Positions 3,902-21,775 of a DNA stretch of 22,094 nucleotides are shown one piece after another. Origin of the DNA: DATKZS01 sp035527835 [NCBI: bacterium]. GTDB lineage: Bacteria > RBG-13-61-14. The position numbers and the translations under genes were made by a program. Within the stretch, counting starts at the first letter, position 1, and the number at the start of each line of letters is the position of its first letter. The notes under the pieces are model-generated. The model did not search any database. It was given only the letters and a program-made list of their open reading frames with translations, and was not told the DNA's origin. The DNA lies in NCBI GenBank assembly GCA_035527835.1, contig DATKZS010000021.1, positions 1 through 22,094 of the forward strand, in the 5' to 3' direction.

Positions 3902-4295
3902 TACCGCCCCTTTTTCCGGTCCACCAGTTTCAGGTATTCCTTTTTCATGACCCGCGCGTCGCCCTCCATGACCGGACTCTCGCAGATCATGATACCAGAC
4001 ACCTTGCAATCGTCCAAGGCGCGCAGCAGCGCTTTCCACCTCAGGCTCGACTCCTTGAGCATCACGTGCCTGCGCTCGCCCTTGGCGCTCCACTCGATCC
4101 CGGACATGTGCAGGTGCAGGTCCGCGAGCGCCCTTTGGCCCAGTCCCTTCTTGCCGTGGCCCCGTCCATGCGCACCCCCCGGACGAACTCGACCTCCATC
4201 GCGTCCAGCCCGAGCCGCTTAACCTCCCGAATCCCGTCCGCAATCCCCTTGCCCCTGGCGCAAATCGGAATTCCCGCGGCGCCGAAAAGGATCAT
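3901..4295 (-). pseudogene. Endonuclease IV-like (AP endonuclease family 2, TIM barrel) remnant
   Basis: The first 43 codons from the ATG at 4295 read like the start of an Nfo-type sugar-phosphate isomerase/endonuclease IV protein (FGAAGIPICARGKGIADGI, then GLDAMEVEFVRGVRM). Near 4165 the homology jumps to another frame, which continues as the family's C-terminal end: ADLHLHMSGIEWSAKGERRH, then SGIMICESPVMEGDA, ending at the TAA at 3901. Homologues have about 270-280 residues; here roughly 130 remain, so about 140-150 central residues, including most metal ligands, are gone and the two halves are out of frame. The ends are intact: it starts 11 nt after the ccdA stop and its stop overlaps the next start as TAATG, so this was once the second gene of a three-gene operon. 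An assembly collapse is the alternative explanation. Confidence 0.75.
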
Positions 4296-4306
4296 GGGTC
4301 CGCCGC

Positions 4307-5050
4307 TCACCCCCACAGGTTCACGCTGTCCGGGAGGATGAGCTGGAAGAGGTGTTTGAGGTAGTCGAAGCGGTTTATCACCATCAGCAGTCCGATGATG
4401 ACGAGCAGGGCTCCCGCTCCGATCTCGATTTTGCGGAAGTGGTTCTTGATCTTGTCGAAGGCCTTGAAGAAGGAGTCCACGGCCAGGCCGGTGATGAAGA
4501 AGGGGAGCGCCAGGCCCGCGGAATAGCAGGCCATGAGCCCGAGCGCCTTGCCCACCGTGTCCTCCCTGATGGCCAGGCCCAGGATGCCGCCCAGGATCGG
4601 GCCCACGCACGGGGTCCAGCCGAAAGCAAACGCGATGCCGAGGACAAAGGCCCGCGGCAGGCTCCCGCCCTTTCCGCCCTGGAAGCGTTTTTCCAGGTAC
4701 AGGGCCTGGATCTTGAACGCGCCCGCCATGTGCAGGCCCAGGATGATGATGATGACGCCGGCGCCGCGCACCAGCCATTCCTTGTACCGCGCCAGGGCTT
4801 GGCCGAGCGCGAAGGCGGTGGCCCCGCTGGCCATGAAGACCAGGGTGAACCCGAGCACGAACATGAGCGTGCAGGCCATCACCGGCATGAGCTTCTTCCA
4901 CTTGTCCTGGTCCTTCGCCTCCAGGTCGGAAAGCGACACGCCGGAAATGAAGGAGATGTATCCGGGCACCAGCGGCAGGACGCAGGGCGTGATAAAAGAG
5001 ATGATCCCCGCGGTAAACGCGGTCAGGTATCCTGGTACTTGCTGGAACAA
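4307..5050 (-). CDS. ccdA: CcdA-type cytochrome c biogenesis / thiol-disulfide transmembrane protein
   Basis: A 247-residue polytopic membrane protein with about six helices. It has the two signature motifs of the CcdA/DsbD transmembrane family: TPCVLP with C23 and TPCVGP with C148. This redox-active cysteine pair carries reducing equivalents from cytoplasmic thioredoxin across the membrane to extracytoplasmic partners, for cytochrome c maturation or protein disulfide reduction. The length matches stand-alone CcdA rather than three-domain DsbD. The start is a TTG at 5050; no ATG fits, and CCTCC at 5058-5062 (GGAGG on the coding strand) lies seven bases upstream. It heads the leftward block, with an iron-sulfur protein two genes downstream that may be functionally related to redox delivery. 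No thioredoxin-fold partner is encoded nearby. Confidence 0.92.
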   Translation of the reverse strand: MFQQVPGYLTAFTAGIISFITPCVLPLVPGYISFISGVSLSDLEAKDQDKWKKLMPVMACTLMFVLGFTLVFMASGATAFALGQALARYKEWLVRGAGVIIIILGLHMAGAFKIQALYLEKRFQGGKGGSLPRAFVLGIAFAFGWTPCVGPILGGILGLAIREDTVGKALGLMACYSAGLALPFFITGLAVDSFFKAFDKIKNHFRKIEIGAGALLVIIGLLMVINRFDYLKHLFQLILPDSVNLWG

Positions 5051-5177: not shown

Positions 5178-7232
5178 ATGGCGGTCCCGGAAAAGTCTCC
5201 GGCCCGGCGAGCGCTGCGCGCCGTCTCCCTGCTGTTGCCCTTGAGCCTGCTGCTTGCCGCGCTGGCCATTCCCGCCACGTCCGCCCGCGCCGACGGGCCG
5301 CCGGCAGCGCCGGACCCGGTCGTCATCAATGCTCCGAGCTTATGGATCAAGGGCGTGGCCACGGAGGTCCGGGTCACGGTGAACGCGCCGCTGCCGGCCG
5401 GCGCCAGGTGCGTGCTCGCCGGCGCGTCCATTCCGCAGATGAGCCTGCCCTGTAAGAGCGGCGAGGAGGCCGTGTTCAAGGGGGTGAAGGTGGACCGCGC
5501 CGGCGCGTTCGAGCTCCGGGCGTCCGCTGATATGTACACGGCGTCGTTCTCGGCGCGGGCGCTTTACGGCCTGCTCACGCTCTTGCCCCCGCTGGTGGCC
5601 ATCGGCCTGGCGCTGGCCTTCCGGCAGGTGCTGGCGGCGTTGTGGGTGAGCATCTGGCTCGGGGCCTTGATCGCGTTCGGCTGGCACCCCTTTACCGCGG
5701 TCGCCCGCTCCATTGATTATTACATCATCGGCTCGATGGCCGACCCTGACGACGCGGCCATGCTGGTGTTCATCATCTTCATGGGCGGAATGATCGGCAT
5801 GATCGCGAAGAGCGGGGGCATCCAGGGCATTGTTGACCTGGTGGCCAAACGGGCCACCTCGGCCCGGAGCGGCCAGATTTACACCTTCTTGATGGGCATC
5901 TTCATCTTCTTCGACGACTACGCCAACACCATCATCGTGGGCAACACCATGCGTCCGATCACGGACCGGCTCCGGGTCTCGCGCGAGAAGCTCTCCTATA
6001 TCGTTGACGCGACCGCCGCTCCGGTGGCCTCGATCTTCCCCATCTCCACCTGGATCGGCTACGAGGTCGGGCTGATCAACAAGGCGCTGGAAAGTATCGG
6101 CTCGGACCAGAGCGGCTACATGGTTTTCCTGCGCTCGATTCCCTTCCGTTTTTATCCGATCCTCGCGCTGTCCCTGGTATTTTTAGTGGCGCTCACCGGC
6201 CGCGACTTCGGGCCCATGGCCCGGGCGGAGCGCCGGGCGCGGCTCGAGGGCAAGCCGTTGCGCGACGGGGCCATGCCTCTCTCCGGCCTCGATACGCGCG
6301 CGGTGGAGCCGCCCCCGGGCAAGCCGCGCCGCTGGTACAATGCGCTGGTGCCGCTGCTTTCCGTGCTGGGGATCACCTTCGGCGGGCTGTGGGTGAACGG
6401 CGCGGGCGCGCTGGGTGACGCGGGCTATGCGGAGGTCGTGGCCAAGGCGCGGGAATTCGGCGCGCTGTGGGGCCGGATTTTCATCCTGGGCGAGGTGTTC
6501 AGCGCGGCGTCGCCGAACATAGTGCTGGCGTGGGCCAGCCTGGGCGGCTGCATCATCACGGTGTTCATGGTGACCACGCAGCGCATCCTCACCATCGGCG
6601 AGACCATGCAGGCCTGGCTCAAGGGGGTCGAGTCCATGGTGATCGCCATCGTGATCCTGCTGTTGGCCTGGAGCCTGGGCCAGGTCTGCCGCGACCTGCA
6701 CACCGCCGAGTACCTTACCTCGAGCCTGGCCGGCGCGCTGTCGCCAAGGCTCCTGCCCGTCATCGTGTTTATGCTGGCCTGCGGCATCAGCTTCGCCACC
6801 GGGACCAGCTACGGGACCATGGCCATCCTGATGCCGCTTTGCATCCCCATCGCTCACCGGCTCAGCCTGGACGCCGGCTTCGGGGCCGCGGACCAGCACC
6901 TGATCCTGGTGGGCGTGGTCAGCTCGGTGCTGGCCGGCGCGGTCTTCGGCGACCACTGCTCGCCCATCTCCGACACCACCATCATGTCGAGCATGGCCTC
7001 CGGCGCCGACCACGTGGACCACGTCCGCACCCAGATGCCCTACGCCCTGCTCCCCGCCTTCCTCGGCATGTGCCTGGGCGACGTGCCCACCGCCTACGGC
7101 CTGCCCCCGGCCGTCAGCATTGTATTGGGCATCGCATTAATGGTAGGATTTTTGTATCTGTTCGGGACCCGCGTCAATTCTTCAGCCGCCGCCCCCAAGA
7201 ACCAAGCGGAGCAGGAGAGGGGTAAAGCATGA
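5178..7232 (+). CDS. NhaC-family Na+/H+ antiporter with N-terminal extracytoplasmic domain
   Basis: A 684-residue protein. A signal-peptide-like helix (about residues 14-37, ending TSARA) is followed by a beta-rich segment of roughly 90 residues (about 45-128) with two cysteines (C78, C92) that could form a disulfide; the antiporter core begins near residue 131. The core has the hallmark strings of NhaC-type transporters: [19 protein letters not shown] near 245, [20 protein letters not shown] near 280, [13 protein letters not shown] near 550 and [14 protein letters not shown] near 592. It should exchange Na+ (or a charged solute) for H+ across the inner membrane. The ATG at 5178 is the only credible start because a stop lies ten codons upstream, although its Shine-Dalgarno is weak. 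The stop overlaps the next start as ATGA, coupling it to the MCP-XylF fusion. Core NhaC proteins are usually 450-550 residues, so the N-terminal domain is an addition. Confidence 0.9.
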
Positions 7233-9871
7233 ACGGGTCAAGCCGGATCCGTTACGTCATCATACTGGGCGTCGCCAACACGCTCATCGTCTTCGTGGCC
7301 GTGGCCGTGGCCGCCATGATCGCGGGCGCCAAGGTTGCGCCCCATCTGCCGGCCCTGGCCGGATGGAGCGTGGCCGTGTCGCTCCTGATGATGGGCGCGC
7401 TCTTCCTGTTCCGGCTCTTCTCCGGCATCGGTACGTTCCAGGGCGACTCCGCGAAGAAGCTGGCGGAGGAGCTGATCCGGGCGCGGCAGGGCAAGATGGA
7501 CCTGCCGTGGGACGACATCGAGCTGACCGTGAACGGCGAGAGCAAGCTGATCCCGCTGGGCGAGGTGTACGAGCGGCTGGTGACGGTGCTGATCGAGGCC
7601 AACCGCATGAGCGGGCTCTTAAACAGCCTGGCCCACGAGATCCTGGGCCAGGCCGTGCGCCTGTCGCAGAGCGCGGAGGACCAGAGCTCCGCGGTCGGCC
7701 AGTCCACCGCCTCCATCAACCGCATAGACACGTCCATCCGCGAGGTCGTCTCCAATGTGGAGGACTTGGCGGACCTGAATGATAACGTGTCCAGCGCCAC
7801 CTTGGAGATGATCACCAGCATCGAAGAGGTGGGCCGCAACGCGGTCAACCTGAACCAGGCGGTGCAGGAGGAGGTCTCGGCCATCGAGGAGATGGTCGGG
7901 AACATTCACACCGTGGCCGACTCGACCGATTCCCTGACCCAGGCGGCGGTGCAGAGCCGGACCTCCATGGAGGAAATCAGCCGGGCCACGCACTCGATCC
8001 GCGACCGGGCGGAGGAGGCGACCAAGCTCTCGGAGGCCGCCCGCGACGGCGCGGCGCTGACCAAGGGCCTGCTGGCCAAGACGGTTTCCGGCATCCACAA
8101 GCTGGCGGACACCGTGGAGGATACGCGCCATGTCATGCGCCAGCTCGGCATCCAGTCCCGCTCCATCGGCGAGATCCTCAACGTCATCACCTCGGTGGCC
8201 GCCGACACGCACCTGCTCTCCCTTAACGCCTCCATCATGGCGGCCAAGGCCGGCGAGCACGGCCGCGGCTTTTCCGTGGTGGCGCAGGAGATCAAGACCC
8301 TGGCCAACCGCACCTCGGAGAGCGCCAAGGAAATCGAGAAGCTGATCCTCGAGACGCAGGAGAGCGTGGACAAGGCCGTGCGCTCGATCGAGGAAGGCAC
8401 CGCGCGGGTGGGCGAGGGCATGCGGCTCGCCGAGGAAGCGGACCACTCGCTGGCCGACGTGCTCTCGCGGGCGGAGGTCGCGGCCCACAACGCGCACGAC
8501 ATCGCCAGCAACACCGAGGCCCAGGCCGCCGTGAGCGAGCAGGTGTTCAAGGCGGTGGACGAGGTGGCCAAGCGCACCGAGCTGATCCGCGCCGCCATGC
8601 GCGAGCAGGAGGACGCCTCGGGCTACGTGCGCGAGCGCGCCGTCCGCACCCAGAACCTGGTGGCCCAGGTCGCCCAGGCCATGTCCGAGCAGGCCGAGTC
8701 CAGCCGCCGCATCTCCAGCGCCATGGAACGCCTCACCTCCCGCATCCAGGGCATCCGCCACGCCACCGAGGAGCAGGCCGGGAGCTCCTCCGGCGTGGTC
8801 CACGCCGTCGAGGCCATCCGCAAAAAGGCCGACCTCGTCGCCATCAGCGCCCAGAACGTCAACAACACCTCCATGAGCGTGCTCCACCAGTCCATCCTGC
8901 TCCGCCACGAGCTCAAGGACATCACCCTGCCCGAACGCCAAGCCGCCGTCACCATCGGCCTCCTCTTCGACAACCTCCGCGAGGAGCGATGGCAGCGCGA
9001 GGAAGGCATCTTCAAGCAGAAGGCCGCCGAGCTCGGCGCCGCCCTCGAGTTCCGCGTGGCCGGGGGCGACTCCGACCGCCAGCTCGAGCAGGGCGAAGAG
9101 CTGGTGAAAAAGGGCGTGGACCTGATGATCATCGTCGCGGTGAACGCCGAGGCCGCGGGCCGGATCGCCGAGAGCTCGAGAAAGGCCGGCATCCCGGTCA
9201 TCTGCTACGACCGCCTCATCAAGAACTGCGAGCTCGACCTGTTCGTGAGCTTCGACGCCAACCGCATCGGCGAGGTCCAGGCCGAGACCGCCGTGCAAAA
9301 GGCCCCCGGCCGCAACATCCTTATCCTCGCCGGCTCGCCCACCGACACGAACTCCCACATGCTCCACGCCGGCCAGATGAGAGTGCTCGGACCACTGGCC
9401 CAAAAGAAGCAGATCGCCATCGTTGACGACATCTGGGTCCCGGACTGGTCGCCCGAGCAGGCCTACAACCTGACTAAAAGGGTCATCCAAACCAAGGGGC
9501 CGATTGACGCCGTGGTCGCATCCAACGACGGCACCGCCGGAGGCGCCATCCGCGCCGTCAAGGAACTGATCAAGGACAAAAAGGTCGTCGTCACCGGCAT
9601 GGACACCGAGCTTTCCGCCTGCCGCCGCATTGTCGAGGGCTCCCAGGCCATGACCATGTACATGCCCATCAAGCTCCAGGCCGGAAGGGCCATGGAGGCC
9701 GCCATGCTCATGCTCAAGAAGGAGGAAATCCCCGGAATCACCAGCTTCGTGGACAACGGCAAAATGAAAGTCCCCGCCATCCTCTTAAAGCCCATCAAGG
9801 TGGACCTGGAAAACCTCGAAGAGGTCGTGGTCAAGGACGGGTTCCACAAAGCAGAGGACGTCTTCAAATAG
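7229..9871 (+). CDS. Methyl-accepting chemotaxis protein fused to a C-terminal XylF-like sugar-binding domain
   Basis: An 880-residue fusion. Two membrane helices (about 9-33 and 44-64) are joined by a loop of only about ten residues, so there is no normal periplasmic sensor and I see no clear HAMP. A long coiled-coil MCP signalling region follows (about 140-560), with the conserved hairpin tip at about 322-350 ([12 protein letters not shown], then [17 protein letters not shown]), the part that contacts CheA/CheW in known receptors. Residues about 575-880 align end to end, from memory, with D-xylose-binding protein Xyl[51 protein letters not shown] and the final KDGFHK. The Lys of XylF's YKPI is Met here (YMPI). 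With both helices spent before the signalling domain, the binding domain should be cytoplasmic. It is coupled to the antiporter gene by ATGA. No che genes are in the window. Confidence 0.93.
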
Positions 9872-9902
9872 AAGATTGACCCTTGACGCCCCCAAAAAAG
9901 AA

Positions 9903-9908
9903 AGGAGG
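9903..9908 (+). promoter_or_regulatory. Ribosome binding site of the lipoprotein gene
   Basis: AGGAGG lies nine bases before the ATG at 9918. It decides the start against an in-frame ATG at 9876 that would add 14 hydrophilic residues before the signal peptide. The preceding MCP gene ends 46 nt upstream of this ATG, with no clear terminator between them. Confidence 0.75.
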
Positions 9909-9917
9909 AGTAATGTT

Positions 9918-11468
9918 ATGAAAAAGGCTGGCATATCAGCGGGCGCATTGTTTATCACTTTGGCAATCCTCTATTTCTTTATACCGGGCTGTGAAGGCGG
10001 AGGAGGGAGCAATGGAGGAGGAAGAGAAGCACCTATTCCCGATAAGATGGCGGACAACGTCATCCTCATAGACGAGATTACGTCAGTCCTGCTCAGCGAT
10101 ACTACTGATGGGACTTACACCTATGACTACACAGGTGCCGCCCCTGACATCAATCCAGATGACATCCTCCTGAGCAGCGAGGGCTACGGTTACCTGCGCA
10201 AGGTGATCTCCGTAAATGACACCGGAACCTCGCTTCTGGTTGGCACCACCCAGGCCACTCTGGAAGAGGCATTTGAAAATCTGACTATTGGCCTCACTCA
10301 GGCGCTAACGCCAGCGGGCGTGCAGTCTCAACAGCCGTTGCAGGAGGGAATTTATTTTTCTAGGCCAGCCGAGATGCAGCCGCTGCTTGCGGATCAATTT
10401 TATATTAATTTTGATGGCGTCGTTTTATATGAAGAAGGCGGCAACCAGGTTGTCTTGAGCGGCGATATAACCTTCAAACCGGATCTCAATTTCCAGGCCC
10501 AGATCAGATGGTTTTCACTCAAATACCTTGTCTCTACAATCACTCTCAATGAGACCGCGAATATAAATATAACCTCAACCATCGAAATCCTGAGCCTCCA
10601 GAAAGAAGTGGAGATTGCGAGATATTATTTCGCTCCCATTCCGGCCGGGCCGGTGGAGATAGCGCCAATTCTTACGGTGATGGTGGGCATAAATGGAGAA
10701 TTATCAGTGGATATTACCACTGGTATTACACAGCAAGCCACCCTCACCGCGGGCTTGAAATATGAAAACCGGGCATGGAGCCCAATCAGTGAGTTCAGCA
10801 ATCAGTTTTCGTACCAGCCTCCGGTACTCTCCACCAATTGCTCCTTCAAGGGCTATGCAGGTCCCCAGTTGAACTTGATGATCTATGGGGTGACAGGCCC
10901 CTACATCAATACCAGCGGGTATCTGCTACTTGAAGCTGATCCATGTGATGATCCCTGGTGGAAACTATATGCTGGTCTTTTCGTGAAGGCAGGCGTCAAG
11001 ATCGAGGTGTTAAGCCATGTGATTGCCGGTTATGAGGTCAACATCATTAACCACCAGCGTCTTCTGGCCAGCGGACCGGCCGGGGAATGCGAAACTTGGA
11101 ACATGGAAATCACCGTTACCTATTCATTAGGTCCACCGGAATGCATTTGTGGACCTGCTTGTAATAATAGCTTCTTAGGTGTTTCAGGTTCCTACCCACC
11201 CTTCGAGGTCCAGCATCAGGGAAGTTCATTTTCTTCCGATTCTTGGCTGCCCAATACCATTAACGGAACAATGGATGCTGCGACAATAGAAATGTCTATT
11301 ATTCTTCCACCTGAATTGGACAATGGATGCGGTGATTTCAATAATTTCTCCGGTGAAATAAATGGTAATACTATCAGTGGAACTTACTCCGGCAATGATT
11401 GCGGGGGCGGAGATATTTGTAGTTGGGGAGGAAACTTCATCATTGGCGTAATCAAACCGAAGCCATAA
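9918..11468 (+). CDS. Large predicted lipoprotein, unknown function, AT-richer than neighbours
   Basis: A 516-residue lipoprotein. Residues 1-24 are a signal peptide with lipobox FIPGC, so C25 should be lipidated; a Gly-rich linker follows. Residues about 45-380 look beta-rich and contain a repeat-like opening (VILIDE, then a GYGYLRKVISVN segment) of a kind I associate with large secreted proteins but cannot name. The C-terminal 130 residues hold many cysteines and Gly/Asn-rich strands (CICGPACNNS, GEINGNTISGTYSG), suggesting a second, disulfide-containing beta domain. Base composition is close to 50% GC by eye, with A/T third positions common, unlike the G/C-rich genes on both sides, which suggests recent acquisition or different selection. 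It runs in the same direction as the MCP gene and converges on the barrel-protein gene. Function is unknown; a surface binding role is plausible. Confidence 0.85.
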   Translation: MKKAGISAGALFITLAILYFFIPGCEGGGGSNGGGREAPIPDKMADNVILIDEITSVLLSDTTDGTYTYDYTGAAPDINPDDILLSSEGYGYLRKVISVNDTGTSLLVGTTQATLEEAFENLTIGLTQALTPAGVQSQQPLQEGIYFSRPAEMQPLLADQFYINFDGVVLYEEGGNQVVLSGDITFKPDLNFQAQIRWFSLKYLVSTITLNETANINITSTIEILSLQKEVEIARYYFAPIPAGPVEIAPILTVMVGINGELSVDITTGITQQATLTAGLKYENRAWSPISEFSNQFSYQPPVLSTNCSFKGYAGPQLNLMIYGVTGPYINTSGYLLLEADPCDDPWWKLYAGLFVKAGVKIEVLSHVIAGYEVNIINHQRLLASGPAGECETWNMEITVTYSLGPPECICGPACNNSFLGVSGSYPPFEVQHQGSSFSSDSWLPNTINGTMDAATIEMSIILPPELDNGCGDFNNFSGEINGNTISGTYSGNDCGGGDICSWGGNFIIGVIKPKP

Positions 11469-11535: not shown

Positions 11536-13107
11536 CTATTCGATGACGATCCGCCGCACGCCGCTCCGCCGCACCCGGAGAGCGCCCAGCGCCGGATCGA
11601 ACCACGCCCCCGCGCCCGCGCCCTCTCCCGCGCGCAGCTCCATCTCCCGGCCCTCCGCCATGACCCGCCGTGGAATAAACGACAGGCGCAGCGTCTCCGT
11701 CCCCTCCGCGTCAAACGCCTCGTACTCGATCCGGCCGGGCTGATACCGGACCTCCCTGATGATCGTCGAGGACGAGAGCAGGTGGTCCTCGCCCTCCGGC
11801 GCCAGCTCCGGCAGAGCGCCCATGCCGTCCAGGAAGTGCGGAACGTAATCGAAGTACCCGTCCGAGAACCACACGTCCGGGTCCGCGATGCTGAAGATCA
11901 CGATCCCGTCGCCCCGCGACAAATACGTGGCCAAAGCGAATGAGCGCAGCGCGTCCTCCCGCCACTCCGGTCCGCCGCCCGCCGCGTGCCACATCGCGCA
12001 CAGCGACGCGTAACGCGCCGTGTGCGACGACGCCACCTGCATGCAGAAGCGCTGCTCGCGCACGGCCGTGGCCCCGCGCCACTTCCCGCGGGTGTCGCCC
12101 AGCGTCTGCTTGATCCAGCCGAGCAGCATGGGCACGTGAGCGCGCCACTCCGGGTCCGCCTCCGGGCGCCTCATCAGGTACCGCGCGACCTCCCCGGGAG
12201 TGTACTGGTCCCGGTTAAAATTGCCCGGGTCCCGCACCACGTCCTCGAAATAGCCCTTCCACTTCATGGTCCGCATCGGATACGCCATCAGCCACGTCCA
12301 GGCCGCCTCCCGCGCCTCCCCGTACTTCCCCTCCCGGTCCCGGCCCAGCGCCATCAGCTCGTCAAACAGCGTCACCGGCCAGATCACCTCGCTGGTGTAC
12401 TCCTCCAGCGCCTTCCCCGTCCGCGCGTTCACCCGAAACGGCCACGGCGAATGCCGCGCGTCCCCCGGCCTCATCTTCTCCGCCAGCACCTCCGCGCAAT
12501 GCTCGGCCTCTCTTAAATATTTTTCCTCGCCGGTGAGCTGGTAGAACCTGACGTAGCCCGCGCCGGCCTGGCCCACCTTGTCCGGCTCGATCCCGTCAAT
12601 TCCTTCGTGCGACCCGCCCCGGTAATGGCCGGAGTTGTCGGCCGAGGCATAGGGCACGCGCGGCCAGGCAAAGTCCGGCGGCGTGGACTCCGCGATCAAG
12701 TGGTCGAGCGGATGGCGCGCGAGCTCGATCCACTTCCGCTCCCCGGTGTACGCCCAGTACCGCGCCACCGTCTCCACCATCATCCCGTACAGCCCCGCCG
12801 GGTTGTGCGGCCACTGCTCCGGCTCCATGTCCGGCGCGCGGAAGTCGCTGTACTGCTCGTACCACGGCAATCCGGTCGCGCCGTCCCGCGGACAGGCAGC
12901 GATGAAGTCCATGGAAAGCGCCATGACCCGGTCATAAGAGGTCCAGGGCAGGAGCTTGCCCTCCGCGTCCAGCACCGGCTCATGAAACGGAATCTCCTCG
13001 TGGAATTTCGGCGGCGCGATGAGGCGCCAGAACAGCTCGTCAGCCCGGGCCGGGCCGCCAGGCAACAGCAAGGCAAGAACCAAAAAATGCGGGGCGATTT
13101 TTTTCAT
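11536..13107 (-). CDS. Secreted (alpha/alpha) barrel protein, six-hairpin glycosidase-like
   Basis: A 523-residue exported protein. The signal peptide covers residues 1-22 (cleavage near GPARA|D). The mature chain is mostly helical with spaced aromatic and acidic motifs (ETVARYWAYTGERKWIELA, SHEGIDGIEPDKVGQAGAG, VRFYQLTGEEKYLREAEHCAE). Alternating helices with a recurrent small-residue/TG-x-x-K-Y/W pattern are typical of six-hairpin glycosidases and related polysaccharide-processing barrels. The last 75 residues are strand-like (IIREVRYQPGRIEYEAF, then LRLSFIPRRV), a probable C-terminal beta domain. I cannot assign a CAZy family, and catalytic residues are uncertain. The start at 13107 places the signal peptide first and has AGAGG upstream; an in-frame ATG at 13158 would add 17 residues before it. 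It lies 193 nt after the beta-propeller gene in the same direction but is separated from it by an inverted repeat. Confidence 0.8.
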   Translation of the reverse strand: MKKIAPHFLVLALLLPGGPARADELFWRLIAPPKFHEEIPFHEPVLDAEGKLLPWTSYDRVMALSMDFIAACPRDGATGLPWYEQYSDFRAPDMEPEQWPHNPAGLYGMMVETVARYWAYTGERKWIELARHPLDHLIAESTPPDFAWPRVPYASADNSGHYRGGSHEGIDGIEPDKVGQAGAGYVRFYQLTGEEKYLREAEHCAEVLAEKMRPGDARHSPWPFRVNARTGKALEEYTSEVIWPVTLFDELMALGRDREGKYGEAREAAWTWLMAYPMRTMKWKGYFEDVVRDPGNFNRDQYTPGEVARYLMRRPEADPEWRAHVPMLLGWIKQTLGDTRGKWRGATAVREQRFCMQVASSHTARYASLCAMWHAAGGGPEWREDALRSFALATYLSRGDGIVIFSIADPDVWFSDGYFDYVPHFLDGMGALPELAPEGEDHLLSSSTIIREVRYQPGRIEYEAFDAEGTETLRLSFIPRRVMAEGREMELRAGEGAGAGAWFDPALGALRVRRSGVRRIVIE

Positions 13108-13189
13108 GACACGCGACCTCTTTTTTATTACAACTGGTTTCATAACCAGCGCCATCATCCCAAGCCCGAAGATAAAAAAACAATGATGT

Positions 13190-18327: not shown

Positions 18328-18702
18328 TCAAGCCCGGTCGCGGCCGAGGAGCTTCCTGATTTTTTCCCGGAGCACGCGGGGCTGAAACGGCTTGACCATG
18401 TAGTCATCGGCGCCTTTGAGGTCGCCCAGCGCCCGGGAGGGCGAGCTGCCGCGCGCGGTCAGGATCAGGACCAGCGTGCGCCGCGTCTCGGGGTTCTTCT
18501 TGATTTCCTCGCACACCGCATAGCCCCATTTGTCCGGGAGCATCAGATCGAGGACCACCAGGTCCGGCTTGAGCCGGCCCGCCATCTCCAGCGCGCCCTC
18601 TCCGTCCTCGGCTTCGTGCAGCTCGTAGCCCTCGTCTTCCAGGCTCATGCGCACCAGGCGGAGGACATTGGCGTCATCGTCCACGATCAGGATTTTCTTC
18701 AC
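18328..18702 (-). CDS. Single-domain response regulator (CheY/Spo0F-like)
   Basis: A 124-residue receiver domain with nothing after it. The acidic pocket D8/D9, phospho-acceptor D52 in VVLDLMLP, switch T82 in LILTARGS and K104 in VKPF are all present, so it should accept phosphate from the histidine kinase encoded directly upstream. It has no DNA-binding or enzymatic output domain and must act through a partner. The start is the GTG at 18702, where the receiver begins (VKKILIVDDD); an upstream-extended frame to 18990 runs antisense-free through the kinase's last codons and carries no domain. It overlaps the kinase gene by 29 nt, which implies tight coupling, and is followed 25-60 nt later by the ankyrin gene. 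Confidence 0.92.
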   Translation of the reverse strand: MKKILIVDDDANVLRLVRMSLEDEGYELHEAEDGEGALEMAGRLKPDLVVLDLMLPDKWGYAVCEEIKKNPETRRTLVLILTARGSSPSRALGDLKGADDYMVKPFQPRVLREKIRKLLGRDRA

Positions 18703-20155
18703 CTTGATCCCTCCCGGTCTTGACGTCCAGAATAAAATAGAATTCGCTGCCCTGGCCCCTCCCGTCCGCGAGCCCGATCCTGCCGCCGTGGGCCTCGATG
18801 ATCTCACGCGCCAGGGCAAGACCCACTCCGGCGCCATGTTCCCGGGGCCGGGTGAACTTGTCCACCTGCTGAAATTTATCGAAGATGCCCCGCCGGAGCT
18901 CGGGGGCAGTGCCCGGGCCGGTATCGGAGACGGAAACCTTGACGCGCGGCCGCTCCTCACCGGCCAGCATTGCAATCGAAAGTATAACACGGCCGTTGGC
19001 CGGAGTAAATTTCACGGCATTGGAGAGCAGATTGGCCATAACCTGGCTGAGCCGGTCGGCGTTGCCGCTGACCCACACCGCGGTATCGGGCAGGGCCGTC
19101 TCCAGGCTGATTTTCTTGGAATAGGCCGCTCCCCGGAACAGGTCCGCGGACTCGCGCGCGAGCCGGCTAAGGTCCAGGTCCTGGAAGTCGAGCTCCATCT
19201 TGCCCGCCGCGAACCGCTGCAAGTCGAGCAGGTCGTTGATCAGGCGCGCAAGGCGCTGGCTTTCCTTGACGATGATCTCCAGCGATAATTTCTGGTCCTG
19301 CTCGCTGAATCGGCCCAGCCGCTCCAGCATGATGGAGGCGTAGCCCTCGATGCTGGTCATGGGCGTGCGCAGGTCGTGCGAGACCAATGAAAGAAAGTTG
19401 TCCTTCATCACGTCCAGTTCCCGGAGCTTGCGGTTCGAGGCCGTTAATTCTTCGTTCAAGCGCAGCGTCTGCTTGGTCCTGTAGTTGAGCAGGCCCACGA
19501 TATAAATAATAAAGTATTCGAAAAATATCATGGTGAAGGCTATGATCAGGGAAAACGTTATCACCAGGGTAGGGGCGGTGAACAACTCCTTGAACGTGAC
19601 CCGGTCCAGGATGACCGACATGTCGGGGATGTAGCCCAGCCGGCTGAGTCCGACGGCGCCCAGGTACATGGTGACCGAGCAGAACAGGCCCCAGCGCCCG
19701 ATGCGCGGACTCATGAAGATGCTTAGGTAAGTGATGGTTATTAACAGGAACAAGGGGGCGAGGAGTCCGATCATGCCGCCGAAGAACAGGCAGATGTGGA
19801 TGAAGTTGGCAACCACCAGCACGATGGAGCAGCCCAAATAAGTGTCGCTCATGTTGTTTTGCGTGACTTTGAGAATCGGGAGCGAGATGTACCCAAGCAC
19901 GCCGCACAAGAGATACCACTTCATCACCGCCACGAAGAAGGCGAGGTTATCCGGGGAGAAATAGGCCCGGGCCGCGTCGGAGGGGATGATGATCTTCGTG
20001 AGCACCAGGTAGATTTGCAGGTTGACCAGAAAAACCAGGGTCCATAAAAAGGTCGCCCGGCCGAACAGCTCTCCCCGCTCCGCGAACGTCCAGAAAAACC
20101 CGGATGCGCGGGCCAAAATAAAACTTTTAGGCCTGGAGCCTTCAGTCATGGTCAT
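18674..20155 (-). CDS. Membrane sensor histidine kinase
   Basis: A 493-residue kinase. The N-terminal 225 residues contain about six hydrophobic helices with short loops and no large periplasmic sensor, an arrangement suited to sensing within the membrane. A linker coiled coil leads to the HisKA domain with H260 in SHDLRTP, then the ATPase domain with N box NLLSNAVKF (375-383), G1 DTGPG (411-415), F box near FDKFQQ and G2 GAGVGLALA (441-449). All catalytic motifs are intact. The partner is the overlapping receiver gene downstream. Two in-frame ATGs (20155 and 20149) are possible; the GAGG upstream is better spaced for the second. A structured intergenic element (20191-20292) lies just upstream and could be in the 5' leader of this operon. 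Confidence 0.93.
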   Translation of the reverse strand: MTMTEGSRPKSFILARASGFFWTFAERGELFGRATFLWTLVFLVNLQIYLVLTKIIIPSDAARAYFSPDNLAFFVAVMKWYLLCGVLGYISLPILKVTQNNMSDTYLGCSIVLVVANFIHICLFFGGMIGLLAPLFLLITITYLSIFMSPRIGRWGLFCSVTMYLGAVGLSRLGYIPDMSVILDRVTFKELFTAPTLVITFSLIIAFTMIFFEYFIIYIVGLLNYRTKQTLRLNEELTASNRKLRELDVMKDNFLSLVSHDLRTPMTSIEGYASIMLERLGRFSEQDQKLSLEIIVKESQRLARLINDLLDLQRFAAGKMELDFQDLDLSRLARESADLFRGAAYSKKISLETALPDTAVWVSGNADRLSQVMANLLSNAVKFTPANGRVILSIAMLAGEERPRVKVSVSDTGPGTAPELRRGIFDKFQQVDKFTRPREHGAGVGLALAREIIEAHGGRIGLADGRGQGSEFYFILDVKTGRDQGEENPDRGR

Positions 20156-20305: not shown

Positions 20306-21775
20306 TTAAAATGTGCCGCGGCCTTGCCCTTCCTTCCATTCATGATACCTTGCCCCCGCGCTGATGGCCGCGCAGCCGGATTCGATGGTGGGAAAGAGCG
20401 AGACGTGGTCCGGCCCGGGCACGCCGTTGCCGGCCTCGCCGGCGGGGTTGAAGTTGGAGACGACGTAGATGGGGACCCGGAGCTCGCGCATTTTCTTGAG
20501 CAGGGCGTCGCCGAAGGCCGCGAACATTTTGGACATGGCCTTCCACATTTTATGGAGCTGCTCGGTCTGGGGGTTCCTGGCGGCTTGCTCCTGCTCCTTG
20601 CTGCGGGGCGGGCCGATGAAGAGCAGCAGCAGGGAATCAATCTCGCCGCTTTTCATGAGCAGGTCCATTACCGGCATGACCACCTGGAAGTTCATGCCCG
20701 CCACCAGGTCCACCGGATTGCCCGGCGACCACCAGGCCGGCATCATGGCGCCGATCCTGGCGAGCGTCCCTTCCGACAGCTTCACCACGTCGAGCCCCAG
20801 CTCGGCGCACGTGTCCGCCGCCACCACTCCGAGCCCGCCGCCGCCGGTGATGATCCCGACCCTTTTGCCGCGCGGCAGCGGCCGGTTCAGGAACGAGCCG
20901 GCGATGATCCCGGCCTCGTCCATGGTCCGCGCCCGCACAATGCCCGCCTGCCGGCACGCCGCCTCGAACAGGCGGTCGTCCACCGCCATCGCGCCCGTGT
21001 GCGAGCGGGCCGCGCTGATCCCGGAACTCGTGCGCCCGCCCTTGAGCGCGATGATCGGCTTGATGGCGCCGGCCCGGCGCGCGCCCTCGATGAACCGACG
21101 GCCGTCGGTCACGCCCTCGATGTAAGAAAGGATCACCTCGGTCTCCGGGTCGTTCGCCAGATACTCGTAATAGTCCTCCGAGCGCAGGTCCGCCTCGTTC
21201 CCGCTCGACACCCCCTTCGAGACCCCGAACCCGGCCTTCTGCACCTCCTCCACCAGGATCCCCTGCACGTTCCCGCTCTGCGAGATCACCGCCACCTTCC
21301 CCGGCCGCGGAAAATAAAGGTGCGGCATCCAGGCAAAAAGCTTCGCGGCGGGATTGCAGATGCCCTGGCCGTTCGGGCCGACCAGCACCATGCCCCCGGC
21401 GCGGGCCTTCCTCACCATTTCCATTTCCACGTCCGCCCACTCGCCGCCCAGCTCCTTGAACCCGGCGCTGATCACCACGCCCGCCTTCACCCGCTTCATC
21501 AGGCAGTCGTCGAGCGCGGCCGGGACCTCCCTGGCCGGCACCGTGAACACGGCAAGGTCAACCTCGCCGGGAATATCGCGCACCGACGGGTATGCCGTGA
21601 GGCCGAGCACGGTCTCGCGGCCCGGGTTCACCGGGTAGAGCTTGCCCTCGTACCCGCCGGTGATCAGGTTGTTGAACACGATGAAGCCCCATTTCTGGAG
21701 CTTCTCCGTGGCCCCCACGAACGCCACGGAACGTGGACGGAACAAATAATCGAGCGCTCTTAAACGTTGGTCCAT
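20306..21775 (-). CDS. CoA-binding acyl-CoA synthetase (ADP-forming) alpha-type subunit
   Basis: A 489-residue cytoplasmic protein. Residues about 8-140 are a CoA-binding Rossmann domain (RPRSVAFVGAT, YPVNP, ISAGFKELGG, VGPNGQGI), about 155-290 a CoA-ligase domain (VAVISQSGNVQG, SSGNEADL, and RSHTGAMA with the probable phospho-histidine H259), and about 300-465 a succinyl-CoA ligase-like third domain (GITGG-type loop GIITGGGGLGVVAAD). This is the alpha-half layout of acetyl/acyl-CoA synthetases (ADP-forming), which make ATP from acyl-CoA. The ATP-grasp beta-half is neither fused nor downstream in the window. The ATG at 21775 begins right at the domain; AGAGG lies about a dozen bases upstream. 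A heptamer repeat array begins some 40-100 nt upstream of the start. Confidence 0.88.
   Translation of the reverse strand: MDQRLRALDYLFRPRSVAFVGATEKLQKWGFIVFNNLITGGYEGKLYPVNPGRETVLGLTAYPSVRDIPGEVDLAVFTVPAREVPAALDDCLMKRVKAGVVISAGFKELGGEWADVEMEMVRKARAGGMVLVGPNGQGICNPAAKLFAWMPHLYFPRPGKVAVISQSGNVQGILVEEVQKAGFGVSKGVSSGNEADLRSEDYYEYLANDPETEVILSYIEGVTDGRRFIEGARRAGAIKPIIALKGGRTSSGISAARSHTGAMAVDDRLFEAACRQAGIVRARTMDEAGIIAGSFLNRPLPRGKRVGIITGGGGLGVVAADTCAELGLDVVKLSEGTLARIGAMMPAWWSPGNPVDLVAGMNFQVVMPVMDLLMKSGEIDSLLLLFIGPPRSKEQEQAARNPQTEQLHKMWKAMSKMFAAFGDALLKKMRELRVPIYVVSNFNPAGEAGNGVPGPDHVSLFPTIESGCAAISAGARYHEWKEGQGRGTF

Follow-up and report, generated by a model that had tools for sequence, protein, structure and literature searches.

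Contig DATKZS010000021.1 of the bacterium DATKZS01 sp035527835 (assembly GCA_035527835.1), of which the whole analysed stretch of 22,094 nucleotides is referred to here as the window, contains a forward-strand gene (positions 7229–9871) that starts with ATG, has no internal stop and encodes an 880-residue protein combining a membrane hairpin, the signalling coiled coil of a methyl-accepting chemotaxis protein (MCP) and a C-terminal XylF-type domain. In Pfam searches, MCPsignal covers residues 294–448 (E 9.6e-40, 136.7 bits, cut-off 34.6) and Peripla_BP_4 covers residues 588–832 (E 6e-46, 157.5 bits, cut-off 35.1), which places a ligand-binding-type domain after the signalling domain, with both matches far above cut-off and ligand binding itself predicted. 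Comparison with PDB chains (phmmer) aligned residues 573–880 with 4ywh (E 1.9e-74) and residues 574–877 with E. coli XylF (3m9w; E 9.8e-72), and the coiled coil matched MCP structures including 2ch7 (residues 187–484). An earlier interpretation made from the DNA letters alone (the sequence-only reading) had proposed such a single protein, an MCP joined to a complete XylF-type domain, and both the unbroken frame and the order of the Pfam domains uphold it.

The guanine-plus-cytosine (GC) content at third codon positions ranges from 0.85 to 0.98 in all eight blocks of 330 bases, junction included, and nothing in this even profile points to a frameshift or to a join between two genes in the intact frame. 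Full-length homologues with the same domain order exist in two other genomes, at locus L001 (7764–10412, 882 amino acids; bin title uncultured delta proteobacterium) and at locus L016 (1446–4094, 882 amino acids), which share the order of the window fusion from the membrane hairpin through to the DGFH end and score 135.8 and 124.3 bits, respectively, for MCPsignal. Whole-length identity is 42% between the window protein and either of them, and the two share 75% identity with each other; by region, identity to the relatives is 63–67% in the tip, 46–48% in the XylF-type domain, 44–45% in the returning arm, 34.5% in the outgoing arm, 26–28% in the membrane part and 17% in the linker. An assembly or sequencing artefact that joined an MCP gene to a xylF gene was considered and rejected, since nothing was found in its favour, the layout recurs in two other genomes and codon-position GC is uniform across the junction; we give this explanation practically no weight.

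The N-terminal part contains two hydrophobic segments, membrane helix 1 (residues 10–28, positions 7256–7312, hydropathy 2.72) and membrane helix 2 (residues 43–61, 7355–7411, hydropathy 2.05), the latter overlapped by a weaker segment at 36–54. Only 14 residues separate the two helices, in agreement with the tiny loop of the sequence-only reading, and a periplasmic sensor would not fit between them. The same pair of segments occurs in L001 and L016, with one extra weak segment each, between the two helices in L001 (25–43; 1.52) and within the coiled coil in L016 (524–542; 1.37). The linker that follows (residues 62–109, 7412–7555) is the least conserved part of the fusions (16.9% identity over 67–125). 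No HAMP domain was found at E up to 1 in any of the three fusions, a search in which weak matches may be filtered out, and a HAMP domain or periplasmic sensor in the N-terminal part was rejected as a candidate after hydropathy and domain scans gave neither. No third membrane helix appears past residue 100 of the window protein, where the highest 19-residue mean (1.32 at 629–647) covers a predicted strand and helix start of the sugar-binding fold. Since the MCP part must face CheA, the XylF-type domain is predicted to be cytoplasmic, which is also what the hydropathy profile supports and what had been proposed. The domain begins at residue 572 and the only N-terminal hydrophobic helices are the two described, so that, by hydropathy, neither the export signal nor the periplasmic location of XylF proper is found in the fusion.

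MCPs form a long hairpin in which one arm runs from the membrane to the tip and the second comes back. In the window protein the outgoing arm comprises residues 110–326 approximately (7556–8206; Pfam and PDB matches, helical in a low-confidence model), the tip residues 327–347 (8207–8269; identified by its motif), which we take to correspond to the CheA/CheW-contact region of known MCPs, and the returning arm residues 348–568 (8270–8932), with one strict methylation-type motif at 455–464. Each fusion contains one such motif, and both methylation and control of CheA are predicted. The tip motif, ending in [HQ]GRGF, is present in all three fusions, and a related tip motif occurs in the paralogues L007, L019, L020 and L021.

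Arm lengths were compared at ten lineage loci (L007–L013 and L019–L021), of which L011 was cut off by the end of its locus and L010 and L013 yielded no tip motif. From the start of the tip motif to the end of the protein there are 241 residues in L007, L020 and L021, 252–259 in L008, L009 and L019, and 160 in L012. In the fusion the motif starts at residue 327, and 327 + 241 gives 568, with the XylF-type domain starting at about 572. Because the returning arm of L007, L020 and L021 ends where the XylF-type domain begins, the domain was, on this comparison, appended to a complete returning arm and should lie at the membrane-proximal base, some 240 helix residues away from the tip. The sequence-only reading had placed it beside the CheA-binding tip, which is unlikely given that a whole arm lies between them. 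The three transmembrane MCPs share with the fusion this 241-residue distance and a related tip; they differ in the long N-terminal region that precedes their hairpin and in ending at the arm, where the fusion continues into XylF, and HAMP is present in L007 and L021, the two that were scanned, in contrast to the fusion.

At the tip itself (8207–8269) the fusion has Met and Lys (IMAAKAGE), and among eight lineage MCPs whose tips were read, six have Ile and Gln (IIAAQAG) and two Glu and Gly at these positions. E. coli receptors carry Glu and Arg there. In view of these divergent residues, much of the lineage may use a trimer or CheA contact unlike that of E. coli.

The XylF-type domain (residues 572–880, 8942–9868) was delimited by Pfam, PDB and NCBIfam matches, an AlphaFold model and structure searches. 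The model covers residues 565–880 and was built from a two-sequence alignment in five versions, with a predicted local distance difference test score (pLDDT) from 82.1 down to 53.7; the best has a predicted template modelling score of 0.78. It superposes on 3m9w with template modelling scores of 0.87/0.90 (Z 33.8, root-mean-square deviation 2.4 over 302 residues), and its closest structures are 4ywh (Z 35.4) followed by XylF in its open and closed forms (3m9w/3ma0; Z 34.5 for 3ma0), at 39–41% identity to the XylF structures in the structure alignment. The domain is thus modelled as a complete XylF fold, as the sequence-only reading had expected. The fusion shares fold, sequence and eight of ten pocket columns with XylF of the XylFGH ATP-binding cassette transporter (3m9w, 3ma0; relative 4ywh). 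XylF is a separate exported protein with Lys242 and Gln221, in contrast to the fusion domain, which is cytoplasmic by hydropathy, attached to a receptor and has Met at both positions.

The pocket was examined in an alignment of the three fusions with 21 stand-alone XylF-type proteins (a chosen subset of the search matches plus E. coli XylF), numbered for XylF as in the aligned 3m9w chain; the residues that touch xylose, Lys242 among them, are presumably those considered here, and no literature on the XylF pocket contacts was found. Eight residues (R587, W588, D661, R662, N708, W740, N766 and D792) are identical in 3/3 fusions and in at least 20 of the 21 stand-alone proteins. The remaining two differ: at the XylF Lys242 position all three fusions have Met (Met812, 9662–9664; YMPI) against Lys in 21/21 stand-alone proteins, and at the Gln221 position all three again have Met (Met791, 9599–9601) against Gln in 20 and Ala in one. 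Lys at the first position is also seen by eye in proteins left out of this count, namely L031, L032 and the second XylF/ChvE-like proteins of L034, L044, L045 and L047. The replacement of the YKPI lysine noticed by the sequence-only reading is therefore real and marks an altered site. Since L001 and L016 are closely related, the three fusions amount to approximately two independent witnesses.

That each of the three fusions has given up both polar side chains suggests that the site was retuned rather than lost. The same change would also be compatible with a domain that has stopped binding ligands and instead caps the receptor base structurally or provides a docking platform there, which we consider improbable, as all eight other pocket residues were kept in 3/3 fusions while the linker fell to 17% identity. 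A real receptor whose XylF-type domain recognises a ligand outside the pentoses, for example a signal molecule of the cell interior or a sugar in deoxy or O-acetylated form, would account for Met at both the Lys242 and the Gln221 positions; this alternative deserves more credit and is still unlikely, given the eight unchanged columns and the xylulokinase gene that adjoins the fusion in its relatives.

In L001 this xylulokinase (TIGR01312, 576 bits, cut-off 380) is the convergent neighbour of the fusion gene and is followed by a BD-FAE-type esterase, with two glycoside-hydrolase-like genes upstream of the fusion. In L016 a xylulokinase fragment (4091–4717, reverse strand) overlaps the end of the fusion gene and runs to the contig end, and the rest of it is probably the piece at the end of contig C374. 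The genes past the xylulokinase, two of them efflux-pump-like by eye, have the same order in both genomes (G001 and G002), and the esterase was seen in G001 only. As both xylulokinases belong to one shared gene order, the linkage counts once and not twice.

In the window, the fusion is preceded by a gene with a Na_H_antiporter (NhaC-type) Pfam match (5178–7232, forward strand), whose stop codon overlaps the start of the fusion in the sequence ATGA, so that the two genes are probably on one transcript. Downstream of the fusion lies a gene for a lipoprotein-like protein (by eye) without a family match. Elsewhere in the window, two long frames with exported-like starts by eye (9876–11468, forward; 11536–13158, reverse) gave no match in Pfam (E up to 0.001) or NCBIfam (E up to 0.01), and at 18331–20155 (reverse) a histidine kinase (HisKA, HATPase_c) adjoins a frame with a receiver domain (Response_reg), together forming a two-component pair.

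A search of the phylum gave three genomes (G001–G003, those of L001, L016 and L023), two of which (G001 and G002) contain the fusion. The best XylF match of G003 is a stand-alone, lipoprotein-like protein (lipoprotein start by eye). A CoA-binding synthetase-like protein of the window (20309–21775) is closest to a protein of G003 (65%), and on this basis the window probably belongs to the same lineage. The three fusions form one group both in a tree of the XylF part (100/99, 21 rows, including 18 of the 21 stand-alone proteins) and in a tree of the signalling part (100/100, 15 rows), where a long-branch warning concerning L011 and L012 versus spirochaete MCPs leaves the fusion group unaffected. 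Both trees fit one old fusion that has been inherited since and are compatible with, rather than proof of, a single origin.

Further fusions were sought more widely. In the Spirochaetota, 82 of 392 genomes have a match to the XylF domain at E up to 1e-40, with only five candidates scored in many genomes. Among the matches listed, the only frames longer than 450 residues are those of G328 (849) and G251 (580), and no MCP part was found at either of these loci, both of which encode XylF-type proteins. A 735-residue frame on contig C96 of G004 joins a CsgG-type domain to XylF, and a Spirochaetaceae XylF-type protein (L031, 2597–4573, reverse) likewise has a CsgG-type domain ahead of it in the same frame. 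Among 192 relatives of G001, mostly with four candidates scored per genome, eight gave matches at E values of 1e-60 or below, and whole-length matches were restricted to G001 and G002 among those listed. A scan of a genome collection with short exact patterns, which may miss relatives and did miss the G002 copy, returned five loci, of which L001 matches over its full length and L002–L005 over MCP parts only; L002 and L003, whose loci were read, are MCPs in which no XylF was found. No single place in any of the 4531 matching plasmid records spans 80% of the query, and no relative of the fusion was found on viral contigs.

We favour, with a probability of roughly 0.62, the interpretation that the fusion is a chemoreceptor anchored in the membrane and lacking a periplasmic sensor, in which the C-terminal XylF-type domain reads a cytosolic pentose or related product. 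In the absence of an outside sensor, the XylF-type domain is the sensible input, and from the observed frame, domain content and hydropathy topology we infer the ligand, coupling, response direction and output as follows. The Venus-flytrap domain would hang in the cytoplasm at the hairpin base near the membrane, where a pentose present in free form in the cell, or a product of it (D-xylose, D-xylulose or a close relation), would bind between its lobes. Closure of the lobes would change how the two arms pack against each other at the base, a point at which ordinary receptors receive the input of their membrane helices and HAMP, and the change would run along the bundle to the tip and alter CheA activity in one direction or the other. 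A pentose that enters the cell without being phosphorylated, or the xylulose formed from it by isomerisation, would be available to the domain in the cytoplasm.

Several points weigh against this interpretation. The Met residues in place of Lys242 and Gln221 point to something other than plain xylose as the ligand, and the domain scores 283.5 bits for TIGR02634 (xylF), below the equivalog cut-off of 389.55, compared with 313.6 (below) and 408.5 bits (above) for the stand-alone proteins L022 and L023. No xylose gene adjoins the fusion in the window or was seen in the frames of the window that were scanned, G003 has a xylulokinase and no match to the fusion, and the xylulokinase linkage, lying in a shared order that also holds unrelated genes, may simply be inherited. 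The AlphaFold model of the full-length fusion is poor (pLDDT 49) and uninformative on the placement of the domain. In the available text of PMC2467413, engineered arabinose and maltose sensors worked as binding-protein sensors in the cytosol of E. coli and reported cytosolic levels of both sugars 20- to 200-fold below those outside, so that an internal sensor would have to work at low levels. The possibility of an existing XylF-based sensor for cytosolic xylose was considered and dropped, as the available text of the same paper describes arabinose and maltose sensors and only proposes one for xylose.

Binding-protein-mediated sugar chemotaxis in known systems is indirect, Trg working with RbsB or MglB, and XylFII–LytS operates likewise. 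As proposed for the fusion, a sugar-binding protein feeds a signalling receptor in these systems; it is separate and outside the inner membrane there, whereas it is fused and inside in the window protein. The hybrid two-component sensor BT1754 (2x7x), matched in both the sequence and structure searches, also has a sugar-binding-protein fold built into a sensor, but as a periplasmic domain, according to the entry title, and in a two-component system. In the available text of PMC7390727, chemoreceptors with a ligand-binding domain in a C-terminal extension form a subfamily that is poorly characterised and includes at least 17 types of domain, among which CZB is by far the commonest. In these the sensor follows the signalling domain, as it does in the fusion, whose complete two-lobed solute-binding protein may or may not be among those 17 types; a table in PMC8547431 lists Peripla_BP_5 with a single count. 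The novelty of the layout in the sequence-only reading is overstated: the open-access literature, as far as its main texts were available and with supplements outside its scope, gave no description of a C-terminal XylF-type domain on an MCP, but C-terminal ligand-binding MCPs are already a known class (PMC7390727), which makes the fusion a variant within it.

CheA, CheR and PilT scored above cut-off in all three lineage genomes, with two or three CheA-type matches per genome, and no flagellin match was obtained in G001–G003, a negative limited by the incompleteness of the bins. Given CheA, CheR and PilT without a flagellin match, signalling could lead to motility by type IV pili, with the chemosensory arrays perhaps steering these pili in place of flagella. 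A more specific scenario, which we regard as tentative and rather doubtful as a whole, is that sugar sensing has been turned inside out in a lineage of uncultured bacteria: a captured binding protein with a Met-retuned pocket would report an intermediate of pentose metabolism in the cytosol. This could be D-xylulose, on which the kinase encoded next to the fusion in two relatives acts, and motility, perhaps by type IV pili, would follow the sugar that has been taken up and not the sugar outside.

With sensor and receptor in one chain, the fusion allows tests of how the closing of a flytrap is coupled to a chemoreceptor bundle, and its two Met substitutions make a sharp, testable prediction of a changed ligand. 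If the favoured interpretation is true, it would be a native, direct sensor of uptake and metabolism, in contrast to known binding-protein sugar chemotaxis, which reads the outside, and the cell may steer by a sugar or sugar product that is already internal.

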